A stretch of DNA of 64,000 nt from Micromonospora lutea (GTDB lineage: Bacteria; Actinomycetota; Actinomycetes; Mycobacteriales; Micromonosporaceae): positions 62,001 to 126,000 of the forward strand of contig NZ_BOPB01000014.1 of the NCBI RefSeq assembly GCF_016863535.1, written 5' to 3'. Position 1 is the stretch's first letter. Each line of letters opens with the position of its first letter. The notes below the pieces were generated by a model. That model was given only the letters and a program-made list of their open reading frames with translations. It was not told the DNA's origin and ran no database searches. A program made the translations under genes and the position numbers. This document shows, piece by piece, positions 41,848 through 48,684 of the stretch.

Positions 41848-42606
41848 ATGGAGAAGACCGTTCTGTACCAGTTCCTGATCGAGGTGCCGCGCGCCGCCGC
41901 CATCTGGTCGGTCCTGCTGGTGCTCGCCCTGGGCGTACTCACCGTGCTGGTCGCGCGCCCCGAGCCGACCGGGCCGGTGGAGAAACCCGCCGACCAGGAT
42001 GCGGCCCGCGCCGCGAACGAGGAGGCCGACCTGCGCCGGTACGCCGGGGAGGTGGCGGTCGCAGCAGCCGGCGCGGCGCAGAACGCCGAGCGACGGCGGG
42101 CCGCGTGGCGGACCGCCCAGACGGATCTCGACCGGGTCTGGGCCGCGTACGACGAGGCGGAGTCCGCCGCCCGTCGGCTGGCCGGCGTCGCCGGACTACC
42201 GACCCCGCGCACTGGCCGCACCCCGGCCGAGTACGCGGCCCGGGAGCGCTGGCTGCGCCGTGCCGCGATGGCGGCGCACTGGCGTGGTGACCTGACCGCC
42301 CGGCAGCTCAGCGACGTGCTGGCGGGCCGGTCCGGCTGGGATCCCCGCCGCCATCCGGCCGAGCAGGAGGTGGTCCTCGCCCGGGTGGTACGCGACAACC
42401 GCCTGGCTGCCTACCGGTCGGCCGCCGCCCGGGAGCGTGACCTGTGGCGGGCCGCGGAATTGGCCACCGAGGCGGCCCGCGCCCTCTCTGCCGAGGCGTA
42501 CGCGGCCGCCGAGCGCCTCCGACCGGACCGGCTGCCCGCTCCCGGCCGGGTTGCCGTCGGGCGACCCGGGCCGGTGGTGCGCTGGCGGCCGGCTCGACTG
42601 GGCTGA
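41848..42606 (+). CDS. Hypothetical membrane-anchored coiled-coil protein
   Basis: A 252-residue protein with one N-terminal transmembrane helix (about 16-38, IWSVLLVLALGVLTVLVA) and a long Ala/Arg/Glu-rich helical, probably coiled-coil domain (50-230) on the cytoplasmic side, given the positive charges after the helix. GAGGTGCC lies just before the ATG. No family is recognised. The neighbouring c-di-AMP riboswitch lies in its 3' flank but has its own promoter, so no joint control is evident. Confidence 0.65.
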   Translation: MEKTVLYQFLIEVPRAAAIWSVLLVLALGVLTVLVARPEPTGPVEKPADQDAARAANEEADLRRYAGEVAVAAAGAAQNAERRRAAWRTAQTDLDRVWAAYDEAESAARRLAGVAGLPTPRTGRTPAEYAARERWLRRAAMAAHWRGDLTARQLSDVLAGRSGWDPRRHPAEQEVVLARVVRDNRLAAYRSAAARERDLWRAAELATEAARALSAEAYAAAERLRPDRLPAPGRVAVGRPGPVVRWRPARLG

Positions 42607-42814
42607 AATTCCGTGAGCTGGCTCACATCCGTCGAAAATTCGGTCACTCTTCGTAGTTGAGCCGATTGCCGCAGCAAACCCCGCCGGCATTGTGGACGAC
42701 CGTCCGGTTGTGACCCGAAGGCGACGGGAATTCCGTCGGTCCCATTGAGCGACGCCAGTTCCCCGACACCCGAAAATTGCTTCACTGGATCATGTTTACG
42801 CAGGTCAGGTCGGG

Positions 42815-42843
42815 TTGGTTTTAAGTTGACCGGCCAGTAGTGT
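42815..42843 (+). promoter_or_regulatory. Candidate promoter of the riboswitch-led transcript
   Basis: TTGGTT (42815-42820) and TAGTGT (42838-42843) are 17 bases apart. Transcription would begin near 42850, giving a leader of about 410 bases before the peptidase gene. The 200 bases before it (42607-42814) are comparatively AT-rich and hold nothing else that I recognise. Confidence 0.45.
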
Positions 42844-42904
42844 CAGCGCGTCCGGTGCGGTAACCGATCGCAAGAGGCGACGCCGTACCGACCCGCTCAA
42901 TCGT

Positions 42905-43028
42905 GAACTCACGAACCGGGGACCCACTGCACCACTGGGGTGAATCCGCGAGCCTCGGCCCGCGGTAGGGCGTCTTCCCGCCCGAATCCGTCAGCTAACC
43001 CGGTCGGCGGTGATGGAAGGAGTTCCAA
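42905..43028 (+). promoter_or_regulatory. Cyclic-di-AMP riboswitch (ydaO-yuaA type)
   Basis: The conserved blocks of the actinobacterial ydaO class occur in order: ACCGGGGACCCA (about 42915), CTGGGGTGAATCCGCG (about 42934), CCGTCAGCTAACCCGGTCGG (42989-43008) and GGAAGGAG at the end (43016-43023). The pattern matches riboswitch leaders ahead of resuscitation-promoting factors and other wall hydrolases in streptomycetes, where c-di-AMP turns expression off. The downstream gene is a secreted peptidase, as expected for the regulon. Confidence 0.88.
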
Positions 43029-43259
43029 CCCTCGTGCGGTTCGACATGATCCCCCCTTCTCCCCGCCTCCACGGCATCGCGGTGCCCGTGCTCGCCGGTC
43101 CTGCCGCTGCGAGCTGACCCCGGTCACCGCCACCGCCCGGGTTTCCGGGCGTACCCCTGAACGGTCTGTCCCGCTCACCCCGGGCGGTCGTCGGCGTCCT
43201 GACGCCGGCCTGGCCGCCAGAGCGGTGTGCCGTTCTCCCCTCAGTCCGTGGAGGAATCC
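43029..43259 (+). other. Long expression platform / leader after the riboswitch
   Basis: About 230 bases separate the aptamer from the peptidase start. They contain a small hairpin CGCCCGG-GTTT-CCGGGCG (43134-43151) and a second CGGCGTC-CT-GACGCCG near 43190, either of which could act as terminator or pause. A run of pyrimidines (about 43050-43070) stands early in the stretch. No convincing ORF is seen. Confidence 0.5.
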
Positions 43260-44129
43260 GTGAAGCACACCCTCTCTCGCCGGCTCCGCCGGCTGACCAC
43301 CGAACGTCCGTACCAGATCGTCGCCGGCTCCGCCGCCGCGCTCGTGCTGGCCACCGGCACCGGCGTCGCTCTCGCCGGCACCGGGAACACCCCGGCCCCC
43401 ACGCAGACCACGACCGCCGCCGTGGAGCTGCTCGGTGAACCCACGGTGACGCCGAGCCAGGACCGGATCGAGGTAGCGCCGTCGACCGCCGCGCCGAGCA
43501 GCGCGGCACCGAGCAGTGCCGCACCGGCCCGCACCACCCCGTCGCCGTCGCCGTCACCGAAGCCCAGCTCGGCCGCCCCGGACCCGGACCAGACCGTCAA
43601 GAAGGCGGCACCGAAGCCACCGGCGTCGAAGATTCTCGCGTACGACCACCAGGCCCAGATCAACGGCTACTACTGCGGTCCCGCCGCGGTACGCAACGCG
43701 CTCAGCGCCGCCGGCCTGGCCCGCAGCCAGGACGCCCTGGCCAGCCAGCTCGGCACCACGTTCGCCGGCACCAACTCGGCCGAGGACACCACCCGCGTCC
43801 TCAACGCCGTCGTCAAGGGCGACCCGTACGAGACCACGATGATCCGTGGCGGTGCGGCCACCCCGGCTCAGATGGACCAGCTCCAGGCGGATGTCGTCAC
43901 CGCCGTCAGCGACGGCCGAGGTGTCGTGGTGAACGTCGCCGGCAGCGCCACTGACACCAACGGACGCTGGCACTCCTTCCCCGGCGGACACTACGTCGCC
44001 GTGGTCGGCTACAAGGACTCCGGCCGAATGGTGAAGATCGCCGACTCGGCCGACGCCTCGTACCCCTCGTACTGGCTCAGCACCATCGACCTCGCCAACT
44101 GGGCCGCCACCCGCGGCTACTCGGCCTGA
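43260..44129 (+). CDS. Secreted C39-like cysteine peptidase
   Basis: A 289-residue exported protein. GGAGG lies five to six bases before GTG 43260. The N-terminus is basic, followed by a hydrophobic segment (20-40) that is a signal peptide or anchor. A Ser/Pro/Ala/Thr-rich wall-spanning region occupies residues 45-120. The C-terminal domain has NGYYCGPAAV (catalytic Cys139), GGHYVAVVGY (His244) and IADSA (Asp262), the C39/papain-like triad of peptidases. It may cut wall peptides or other secreted proteins. The gene is preceded by a c-di-AMP riboswitch and followed by a strong terminator. Confidence 0.85.
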   Translation: MKHTLSRRLRRLTTERPYQIVAGSAAALVLATGTGVALAGTGNTPAPTQTTTAAVELLGEPTVTPSQDRIEVAPSTAAPSSAAPSSAAPARTTPSPSPSPKPSSAAPDPDQTVKKAAPKPPASKILAYDHQAQINGYYCGPAAVRNALSAAGLARSQDALASQLGTTFAGTNSAEDTTRVLNAVVKGDPYETTMIRGGAATPAQMDQLQADVVTAVSDGRGVVVNVAGSATDTNGRWHSFPGGHYVAVVGYKDSGRMVKIADSADASYPSYWLSTIDLANWAATRGYSA

Positions 44130-44291: not shown

Positions 44292-44340
44292 AGATCTTGG
44301 ACAGTTTCCGTTCGCACCGAACGGAAACTGTCCAAGATCT
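44292..44340. repeat. Perfect 23-bp inverted repeat (49-base dyad) in an intergenic region
   Basis: Left arm 44292-44314 starts AGATCTTGGACAG and ends CCGTTCG. The right arm 44318-44340 is its exact complement, separated by CAC. It lies 108 bases past the terminator of the C39 gene and 195 bases before the methyltransferase. It is too perfect to be chance and too far from a stop codon to be an ordinary terminator. It could be a dispersed intergenic palindrome, a mobile miniature element or a protein-binding cruciform. The rest of the 44130-44535 gap shows only the terminator and a G-rich tract. Confidence 0.9.
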
Positions 44341-47178: not shown

Positions 47179-48684
47179 TCAGCCGACCGGAGCGGCGCTG
47201 GCAGATCGGTCGGTCTGGGTGGGTACGGCGACGGCGACCGGTGCCTCACCCGGTGGCCGCCGGACGTCGATCACCTGGCCGGTGAGGTCCGAGATCAGCA
47301 CGTCCAGCGACGACTGGGCGACAGTCTCGGCGGCGAGCAGCGTGTGCTCGGGTTCCGCGCCGAAGGCTTTCGTCCGCATCGGGGTGGCGGTCCGCTCCGG
47401 GTTGATGATGTTGACGCGTACGCCGGACTCCGCCCACTCGTCCGCGAGCGCCTGGGTGAGATTGACCAGGGCGGCCTTGGTGGCCGAGTAGAGCGCGTAG
47501 TCGGCCCGCCCGCGGGTGTACGAGCTGGAGGTGTAGAGCAGTAGCTGGCCCTTGGTCTGCTGCAGGTAGGGCAGGGCCTGCCGGGCGACGGTGACCGGCC
47601 CGACGAAGTTGACCTGCAACACCCGGTCGATGGTTTCCTGGTCCATCTCGGCCAGCGCGCCCTTCTCCAGGATCCCGGCGGTGACCACGACGTGGTCGAT
47701 GCGGCCGGTGGCCTCGAAGGCGGTCCGCAACGCGGCCTCGACGTCCTCCGGGCGTTCCACGTGGGTGCCGGTGCTGGAGCGGCTGAACGGGAAGACCTGG
47801 GCGCCGTAGCTGCGGGCCAGTTCCGTCAGGTCGTGACCGATGCCGTAGCTTCCGCCGAAGACGACGATCGTGCGGCCGGAGACCTCCTCGCTGTAGGCGC
47901 GGTGGTCGGTCAGCCGGGGCACCTTGGCGGCGGCCAACTGGAACAGCTTGTCGGCCAGGTGCACGTCGACCGGGTGGGTGACCTTGATGTTCTCGTCCGA
48001 GCCGTCGATCACCTTGATCGGGGTTTCGGGGAGGTAGCGCAGCACCACCCCACAGTCGTCGGTGGCGGCGAAGTTGGGGTCACCCTCGGCCCGGCGGTAC
48101 GCCTCGCGGATGGTGCCGGAGCGGAACGCCTGCGGGGTCTGACCCCGGCGCAGCGTGGCCCGCACGGGGATGTCGGTGATGCAGTCGTTCTCGTCGACCT
48201 GCACGATCGTGTCGGCCGAGGGGATGGCCACGTCGACGGCGGCGTAGGTCCACAGGGCGTTCACGCACTCGCGGACGATACGACCGCTGAGCAGCGGGCG
48301 CACCGCGTCGTGGAAGAGGATGTTGCAGTCGCCCTCGCCGACCGCGTCCAGGGCGACGCGGGTGGTGGCGTTGCGGGTGTCACCACCCTCGATCACCTTG
48401 GTGACCTTGCGGAAGCCGGCCTTGTCCACGATCTTCTGCGCTTCGGCGACGTGCCCGGTCGCCATCAGCACGATGATCTCGTCGATCTCGGGCGCGGCCT
48501 CGAAGACGGCCAGCGTGTGCTCGATGATCGGCTTGCCGGCGATCTTGAGCAGCTGCTTGGGAATGCCCAGGCCCAGCCGGGTGCCGGTGCCACCGGCCAG
48601 CACCACCGCCACCGTCCGTGAGGGTCGCCACGGCGCTCGCTCCGCCGGCGTAGTGCCCGGATCGGTGGTCTGGTCCTGCGTCAT
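47179..48684 (-). CDS. Bifunctional cytidylyltransferase-reductase (TarIJ/Bcs1-like) for CDP-polyol synthesis
   Basis: A 501-residue two-domain enzyme. Residues 20-245 are an IspD-type nucleotidyltransferase with LAGGTGTRLGLGIPKQLL, FHDAVRPLLS and RRGQTPQAFRS. Residues 260-485 are a short-chain reductase with FGGSYGIGHDL, VVTAGILEKG, and SSSYTRGRADYALYSATK (Tyr and Lys of the active site). The same order occurs in the Haemophilus Bcs1 enzyme, which reduces ribulose 5-phosphate and charges the ribitol 5-phosphate with CTP. The product would be CDP-ribitol or a similar polyol for a wall polymer. In many Firmicutes the two steps are separate TarI and TarJ proteins; TarJ there is a different reductase family. 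ATG 48684. Confidence 0.88.
   Translation of the reverse strand: MTQDQTTDPGTTPAERAPWRPSRTVAVVLAGGTGTRLGLGIPKQLLKIAGKPIIEHTLAVFEAAPEIDEIIVLMATGHVAEAQKIVDKAGFRKVTKVIEGGDTRNATTRVALDAVGEGDCNILFHDAVRPLLSGRIVRECVNALWTYAAVDVAIPSADTIVQVDENDCITDIPVRATLRRGQTPQAFRSGTIREAYRRAEGDPNFAATDDCGVVLRYLPETPIKVIDGSDENIKVTHPVDVHLADKLFQLAAAKVPRLTDHRAYSEEVSGRTIVVFGGSYGIGHDLTELARSYGAQVFPFSRSSTGTHVERPEDVEAALRTAFEATGRIDHVVVTAGILEKGALAEMDQETIDRVLQVNFVGPVTVARQALPYLQQTKGQLLLYTSSSYTRGRADYALYSATKAALVNLTQALADEWAESGVRVNIINPERTATPMRTKAFGAEPEHTLLAAETVAQSSLDVLISDLTGQVIDVRRPPGEAPVAVAVPTQTDRSASAAPVG

Follow-up and report, generated by a model that had tools for sequence, protein, structure and literature searches.

A short open reading frame between a c-di-AMP riboswitch and a C39-type peptidase gene in Micromonospora suggests a two-step translational relay

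How can a riboswitch govern a gene that begins far beyond its aptamer? The question is raised by a locus of Micromonospora lutea, a member of an antibiotic-producing genus. In the window (the whole stretch of DNA analysed here, 64,000 nucleotides (nt) of contig NZ_BOPB01000014.1 of assembly GCF_016863535.1, positions 62,001 to 126,000), an aptamer for cyclic di-adenosine monophosphate (c-di-AMP) lies upstream of the gene for a secreted C39-type cysteine peptidase. As a reading somewhat likelier to be right than wrong, we propose a two-step translational relay, OFF with c-di-AMP, in which a short upstream open reading frame (uORF) stands between the aptamer and the peptidase. The elements concerned, with SD denoting a Shine-Dalgarno sequence, are as follows.

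42884 to 43024, forward strand: c-di-AMP riboswitch aptamer, RF00379, 89.2 bits (gathering score 38)
42974 to 42978, forward strand: aptamer loop CUUCC, candidate pseudoknot strand against the tail SD, complement of GGAAG at 43015-43019
43015 to 43022, forward strand: SD1, GGAAGGAG, in the aptamer tail; putative ribosome site of the uORF here and of the main gene in most other copies examined
43034 to 43117, forward strand: uORF with GTG start, 27 codons and TGA (VRFDMIPPSPRLHGIAVPVLAGPAAAS); a uORF of 14-34 codons is found in 110 of 114 genus leaders
43066 to 43074, forward strand: anti-SD CCTCCACGG within the uORF (codons for RLHG), exact complement of 43246-43254
43134 to 43151, forward strand: conserved GC hairpin CGCCCGG-GTTT-CCGGGCG after the uORF, lacking a T tract
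43246 to 43254, forward strand: SD2 region CCGTGGAGG of the peptidase gene, strongly conserved and complementary to the anti-SD
43260 to 44129, forward strand: gene for the secreted C39-type cysteine peptidase, 289 amino acids, PF13529

The match to RF00379 (c-di-AMP, ydaO/yuaA; E 1.5e-19) covers all 134 model positions, and RF00379 was the sole family above its gathering score in the window, which gave no Mbox match. The preliminary description of this DNA had recognised a ydaO-class riboswitch and had pointed to a covariance search as the check; the full-length match bears the class out, and only the start given there, 42905, was too late, clipping the 5′ strand of stem P1. We regard the family assignment as confirmed, and ligand binding and repression as predicted. 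The complementarity of loop and tail is general: at least five Watson-Crick pairs in a run were found in 94 of 96 distinct combinations from C39 loci (loop and tail were readable in 165 of all 235 loci). By our own reading, the loop and tail letters of the crystallised ydaO RNA are also complementary (PMC5393176).

What an actinobacterial c-di-AMP aptamer usually controls can be judged from other copies. The aptamer is widespread: 145 of 150 family genomes and 126 of the 197 class genomes sampled have RF00379. In 62 of 69 class loci, the tail holds an SD-like sequence followed by an open reading frame (ORF) of at least 140 amino acids that begins close to where the aptamer model ends; the 69 are 29 best matches plus 40 picked to spread over families rather than a random sample, they include two loci of the window's own genus (L225 and L226), and the long frames were not checked individually. 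The remaining seven comprise two with ORFs of 126-127 amino acids at the same site (L251 and L269), one with an open frame that lacks an ATG, GTG or TTG start (L238) and four with short ORFs (L202, L205, L214 and L210). Among family loci L001-L034, 32 of 34 have an ORF of at least 120 amino acids at the aptamer tail, two of these being doubtful (L012, a C39 locus where a short frame runs on, and L021, with 125 amino acids), and both exceptions are C39 leaders. The 94 proteins starting at the tail, from which L012 and L021 were excluded, contain NLPC_P60 (52), M23 (21), CHAP (7), Transglycosylas (3), SLT (3) and C39_2 (1) domains. C39 leaders with a uORF fall outside the 94 by definition; within that limit, the single C39_2 protein against 52 and 21 of the two commonest kinds agrees with the earlier view that a C39 peptidase is an unusual target, and no paper in the literature searched places a C39 peptidase in a c-di-AMP regulon. 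The usual arrangement in this sample is thus, as read from the sequences, direct control of wall hydrolases at the tail SD. Since SD1 usually starts the main gene in other actinobacterial copies, whatever starts at SD1 is likely the direct target of the aptamer, and at the Micromonospora locus this is the uORF.

Several side observations belong with this survey. Loci L202, L205 and L214, from another family (f14) of the same class, have the aptamer, then a 29-codon uORF that is alike in all three, then a CHAP-like frame some 250 nt on. An 89-amino-acid piece of this frame in L202 scores 24.2 bits against CHAP, just below the cut-off of 26; no ATG, GTG or TTG start with a good SD was seen for it in the three loci, and an ATT behind AGGAG is a possible start. 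The source genome (6.09 Mb) has four RF00379 matches, and two of the other three aptamer genes (L001 and L003; 338 and 367 amino acids as read) had no Pfam match at E 0.001. Two genomes, G064 and G106, carry eleven matches each against the four of the window's genome, and in a further genome two c-di-AMP aptamers lie on the same strand some 1.4 kb apart (G022:C17:46494-46635 and 48063-48199).

The pairing of aptamer and C39 peptidase is no one-off. A C39 domain match (E <= 0.001) was obtained in 83 of 150 family genomes and in 10 of 197 class genomes, three of the 10 being of the window's own genus. An aptamer core lies upstream in 29 of the 30 C39 loci from the family search, the exception being L050, whose contig offers no more than 655 nt ahead of the domain. 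Within the genus, the peptidase is matched at E <= 1e-60 in 97 of 101 genomes, at 100 places, and by a motif test the core is present at all 98 places read (G157 and the second place of G228 are the two outside this count). Across loci L035-L200 (166), the core is missing only in L050 and in L101, which has 310 nt upstream. Merging identical leaders reduces the 166 loci to 132 distinct leaders, of which 114 are of the genus; L107, under the name Micromonospora pattaloongensis, duplicates L062, which is assigned to another genus, and is not counted in the 114. Named relatives include Micromonospora, Verrucosispora and Salinispora, with more distant loci in Plantactinospora, Planosporangium and Dactylosporangium. 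On these sequences, the riboswitch-C39 peptidase pairing is conserved in the genus.

The uORF begins 9 nt past the end of the aptamer match; SD1 is followed by 11 nt and then by GTG at 43034, and the stop TGA occupies 43115-43117. In the 110 genus leaders with such a frame, the start is GTG in 106, ATG in 2 and TTG in 2, and the peptide contains LHG in 94. In the other four leaders, the frame is 47 codons long (L040), runs into the main gene (L070 and L072) or is the main gene itself (L199). The strongest sign that the frame matters comes from its length changes. On a tree of the peptidase gene, multiples of three make up 15 of the 19 events that alter the distance from uORF start to anti-SD core, compared with 17 of the 104 events in control intervals (core to hairpin 9/39, SD to start 1/22, hairpin to main SD 7/43; Fisher p = 1.6e-7). 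The core could be placed in 103 of 110 leaders for this purpose, the 19 events include one clear core misplacement (31 to 87), and of the controls the core-to-hairpin interval includes the uORF end and the SD-to-start interval has a spacing constraint of its own. This landmark-distance test replaced an indel test on pairwise alignments that had given a weak result (multiples of three in 2315/6295 uORF gaps versus 3742/17635 downstream, and in 343/1120 versus 760/2493 when identical events were merged, which is no difference), because many of those gaps were judged alignment noise; the method was thus changed after a weak outcome, and the new test has to be weighed accordingly. Selection on the peptide was rejected as support: the uORF has no third-position excess, the ratio of nonsynonymous to synonymous change (pN/pS) being 0.99 versus 1.02 and 0.90 in the other frames. 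Since length changes keep the frame in the absence of such an excess, the uORF reads as selected for being translated and not for its peptide, translation itself being predicted.

The second link lies between the uORF and the peptidase gene. When the leader is folded to 43262, the core of the uORF pairs with the peptidase SD. Among 113 leaders there are 72 distinct combinations of anti-SD and SD2, and each of the nine positions pairs in 63-72 of them whereas adjoining positions pair in 6-9; the two positions that come next on one side are paired in 24 and 23 of the 72, and for L188 the table has the SD misplaced. Because the anti-SD side was located by its likeness to the consensus, the pairing percentage is partly built in, but the drop outside the nine positions is not. 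In 98 of 110 leaders, the best duplex between uORF and SD2 involves the CTCCA core. In 60 non-redundant leaders, this duplex is more stable than with shuffled uORFs (mean z score -2.6, below -2 in 43), and in 54 of them the uORF is the main predicted partner of SD2 (P > 0.5). The mean cost of opening SD2 is 9.8 kcal/mol; blocking the uORF reduces it to 6.1 kcal/mol (a decrease seen in 58 of 60 leaders) and shuffling the uORF to 6.7 kcal/mol (a decrease in 52 of 60). On both strands of the 64 kb window there are four CCTCCACGG sites against 1.99 expected, and two of the four are the anti-SD and SD2 themselves.

Natural variants bear on both links. Two species, M. qiuiae (L072) and M. sonchi (L070), lack what otherwise lies between the anti-SD core and SD2; their uORF is continuous in frame with the peptidase gene, and core and SD2 sit in a local hairpin of -17.8 and -12.1 kcal/mol, respectively, for 42 nt. 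L199 has no visible anti-SD, and its peptidase gene uses the tail SD1 directly. These short-leader states fit a relay that is able to collapse back to direct control.

The proposed mechanism would run as follows. When c-di-AMP is bound, a pseudoknot between CUUCC (42974-42978) and GGAAG (43015-43019) would cover SD1 and block initiation at the uORF. The untranslated core CCUCCACGG would then pair with CCGUGGAGG around SD2, some 170 nt on, and the peptidase would be silenced. At low c-di-AMP, SD1 would be free, ribosomes crossing the uORF would hold the anti-SD helix open, and the peptidase would be made. The DNA itself contains the aptamer, SD1, the uORF with its conserved frame, the nine-nucleotide complementarity with its conservation, and a promoter (described below). 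Control of SD1 by the pseudoknot is suggested by the known ydaO fold and by a proposal for Corynebacterium glutamicum, and from the arrangement as a whole we infer translation of the uORF, opening of SD2 by ribosomes, and repression as the sign of the response to c-di-AMP. The signal would thus probably reach the enzyme through translation of a mini-gene.

Several results weigh against this relay. Pairing in the anti-SD helix does not covary above shuffled controls (95.7% versus 95.6%), nor does pairing in the pseudoknot (5.15 versus 5.15), which leaves the latter unproven; in both cases this is because the two sides hardly vary. The lack of a third-position excess in the uORF belongs here as well. 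Support from folding for the second step is partial: blocking the uORF leaves SD2 with a mean predicted pairing of 0.78, with just 1 of the 60 leaders dropping under 0.5, and in the window's own leader with 40 nt of coding sequence the probability of SD2 pairing with the uORF is 0.07 while SD2 is paired overall at 0.91, its opening cost differing by only about 1 kcal/mol. Some leaders have a degenerate anti-SD (L042, L045, L168 and, in Salinispora, L079 and L081 are examples), and no consistent uORF anti-SD was found in the nine readable leaders, of 18, from other genera of the family. The relay may therefore be limited to Micromonospora sensu lato. Finally, in the pe20 leader of Mycobacterium tuberculosis, discussed below, removal of the start codon of the first uORF slightly raised expression, opposite in sign to what the relay predicts (PMC12810186).

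The C39 leaders of those other genera (L051-L064, L108, L109, L111 and L114) mostly have short ORFs after the tail SD, and their main starts, when identifiable, are placed some 350-520 nt beyond the aptamer core. Among the short peptides, several have AGP or ASP at the C terminus, and others have Pro-rich N termini in common.

Other ways of using the same leader have to be weighed. Translation of the uORF could act on transcription instead: with SD1 blocked, the untranslated C-rich leader would be open to Rho, and transcription would end before the peptidase gene. From the uORF up to SD2 the leaders are indeed rich in C and poor in G (C/G 1.57 over 110 leaders versus 0.97 for the window), and Rho-dependent termination is reported for the pe20 Mbox leader (PMC12810186). 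However, the first 150 nt of the gene are likewise C-rich (1.41), the C-rich stretch is lost in L070 and L072, the Streptomyces coelicolor rpfA switch is cited as Rho-independent (PMC9960051), and the exact anti-SD would go unexplained, so that we consider this possibility unlikely. A ligand-favoured terminator such as the hairpin at 43134-43151 would correspond to the long expression platform of the preliminary description, and premature termination of rpfA caused by c-di-AMP is reported for Streptomyces in a review (PMC10117811). The hairpin is well kept, with 93.3% of cells paired in an alignment of 58 of the 60 leaders (L037 and L073 excluded) and changes on both sides in 5 cells versus 1.0 in shuffles. 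It is followed by TACCCC rather than a T tract, however, and no terminator-like site (a GC hairpin with a U tract) was found in 42600-43400. It is also not seen in the short leader of L199, nor in those of L070 and L072; since these two species keep SD1, the uORF start, the anti-SD and SD2, the hairpin is probably dispensable and not the central element. SD1, the uORF frame and the anti-SD would be left without a role, and we think attenuation of this kind very unlikely. A consensus fold of the whole leader gave only three pairs. Of the long platform described earlier, the long spacer, a small hairpin and the pyrimidine run are all present, but they do not form a single platform, as the tail SD serves the uORF and the pyrimidine run lies inside it.

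It could also be that the anti-SD helix is real and independent of c-di-AMP, keeping the peptidase low or answering some other stalling or slowing of ribosomes on the uORF, the aptamer affecting the uORF alone. Folding has SD2 mostly paired in either state, and the peptide is rich in Pro and Arg in many leaders, as this would allow; against it, SD1 is the aptamer's own tail, and in L199, which has no uORF, the peptidase gene starts right at SD1. We judge this decidedly unlikely. We find it hardly credible that chance, in DNA this rich in GC, produced both the open frame of the uORF and the complementarity. Open frames are common at this GC content (a stop occurs within the first 19 codons in 18, 9 and 4 of 110 leaders in frames +1, +2 and 0), there is no amino-acid selection and the first indel test was weak, but chance would not explain length changes that keep the frame, the fact that this pair makes up two of only four nonamer sites in the window, or the retention of the anti-SD:SD2 hairpin in L070 and L072.

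The relay has precedents in parts. The closest is the pe20 Mbox leader of M. tuberculosis, which has an SD1 at the aptamer end that the ligand is thought to sequester, a poorly conserved uORF1 with an anti-SD, and an SD2 (PMC12810186). The window leader shares SD1 at the aptamer end, a uORF, and an anti-SD in that uORF complementary to SD2. The two differ in ligand (Mg2+ in pe20, presumptively c-di-AMP here) and in what SD2 starts, a conserved small protein ahead of pe20 versus a secreted peptidase. The pe20 anti-SD can also pair with SD1, whereas in the window sequence only GGAG:CUCC, 4 base pairs, is visible, and loss of the uORF1 start codon in pe20 increased uORF2 expression about 1.3-fold (PMC12810186). 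By this comparison, the window leader lies outside the pe20 system, as aptamer class and target differ, while following a similar plan. Thus the layout of uORF and anti-SD is known, and it is combined here with a c-di-AMP aptamer and a secreted peptidase target.

In the nlpC switch of C. glutamicum, a ydaO-type aptamer precedes a cell-wall peptidase and the authors conclude translational repression, suggesting a pseudoknot in which CTCC of the aptamer pairs with GGAG and blocks the ribosome-binding site (RBS); the target is of NlpC type, unlike ours, and no uORF is described in the parts of that paper drawn on here (PMC9960051). The rpfA switch of S. coelicolor resembles the window in placing a ydaO-type leader before a secreted cell-wall hydrolase, as an OFF switch, and differs in its lysozyme-like Rpf target (PMC10117811, PMC8079986); its mechanism is given as premature termination in a review (PMC10117811) and as a seeming RBS block in a Streptomyces lividans paper (PMC8079986). 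The B12 riboswitches of M. tuberculosis metE and ppe2 are alike in that riboswitch and uORF jointly set downstream translation, and unlike in their ligand and in that PPE2 is made by termination-reinitiation, compared with the 142-nt gap between uORF stop and gene start here (PMC11260477). Because of this gap, termination-reinitiation was set aside for the window. The literature collection searched yielded no paper with both a c-di-AMP riboswitch and a uORF; in a paper on new RNA motifs that mentions both, c-di-AMP appears, in the parts seen, to concern another motif only (PMC8632094).

Upstream of the aptamer lie further conserved elements.

42739 to 42749, forward strand: conserved block GTCCCATTGAG upstream of the promoter (CCCATTGAG with at most one mismatch in 102 of 114 genus leaders)
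42794 to 42805, forward strand: conserved block GTTTACGCAGGT adjoining the -35 box (GTTTACGCAG with at most one mismatch in 102 of 114 genus leaders)
42815 to 42820, forward strand: -35 box TTGGTT
42838 to 42843, forward strand: -10 box TAGTGT, 17 nt after the -35 box

A generic sigma-70 scan of 42600-43400 found no promoter; the pattern TTGGYN-N16..18-TAGTGT and its like is nevertheless present in 109 of the 114 distinct genus leaders, and 99 of these 109 have a spacer of 17 nt. Transcription would start a few bases downstream of the -10 box, ahead of the aptamer, and given the conservation of the promoter the aptamer is very probably part of the transcript. The two blocks upstream are possible regulator sites. 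A search allowing up to two mismatches did not find the one at 42794-42805 in the 170 nt preceding the genome's other three c-di-AMP aptamers.

The controlled gene starts with GTG at 43260, preceded by GTGGAGGA, and 235 bases separate this codon from the end of the aptamer model. Both the secreted C39-like peptidase and the gap of about 230 bases had been described correctly: the match to PF13529 (Peptidase_C39_2) scores 70.7 bits against a cut-off of 24, over residues 130-264, and the only other Pfam family at E 0.001, Phytochelatin, is below its own cut-off. An N-terminal hydrophobic segment is followed by a Ser/Pro/Ala-rich linker and the C39 domain. Judged by motif, the CGP cysteine is present in 114 of 114 genus homologues, the GGHY-type His in 111 and the following Asp in 113; we take the Cys and His to be the C39 catalytic residues. 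The protein matches 541 phage records. Among these, the endolysin of SkinnyPete, a mycobacteriophage lysin A with a C39-like N-terminal domain, is 36.5% identical over 57% of the peptidase. Mycobacteriophage lysin A is a phage endolysin, and the assignment of the SkinnyPete domain to the N5 type is only putative; in Bxz2 gp11, the N5 domain gave a match to a C39-like peptidase, and its predicted cleavage site in peptidoglycan is the D-Glu-mDAP (D-glutamate-meso-diaminopimelate) bond (PMC3314691). A PDB sequence search with the C39 domain returned two matches only, with E about 0.08. By analogy with its Pfam family, the lysin A match and the N5 domain, the substrate of the peptidase would be peptidoglycan. 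Some 160 nt downstream of the gene, a perfect inverted repeat (44292-44340; 23-base-pair stem, 3-nt loop) is perhaps a terminator.

Finally, we consider what the locus may mean for c-di-AMP signalling. Published accounts disagree on the mode of action of actinobacterial c-di-AMP riboswitches, with termination or RBS blocking reported for S. coelicolor versus translation for C. glutamicum nlpC. The fact that the gene starts on the aptamer's tail SD in most copies examined favours translational control in general, and the comparison reveals a branch in which a uORF has been placed between the switch and the enzyme. A C39 peptidase related to phage lysin domains would thereby join the likely c-di-AMP wall regulon of Micromonospora. 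We see about an even chance that the wider lesson holds, namely that a c-di-AMP riboswitch can control a gene remote from it, its aptamer gating a mini-ORF that carries ribosomes over an anti-SD and so relays the signal to the peptidase. The short-leader species would then show how such a relay and direct control interconvert, and the family of L202, L205 and L214 may have a similar uORF before its CHAP-like gene.
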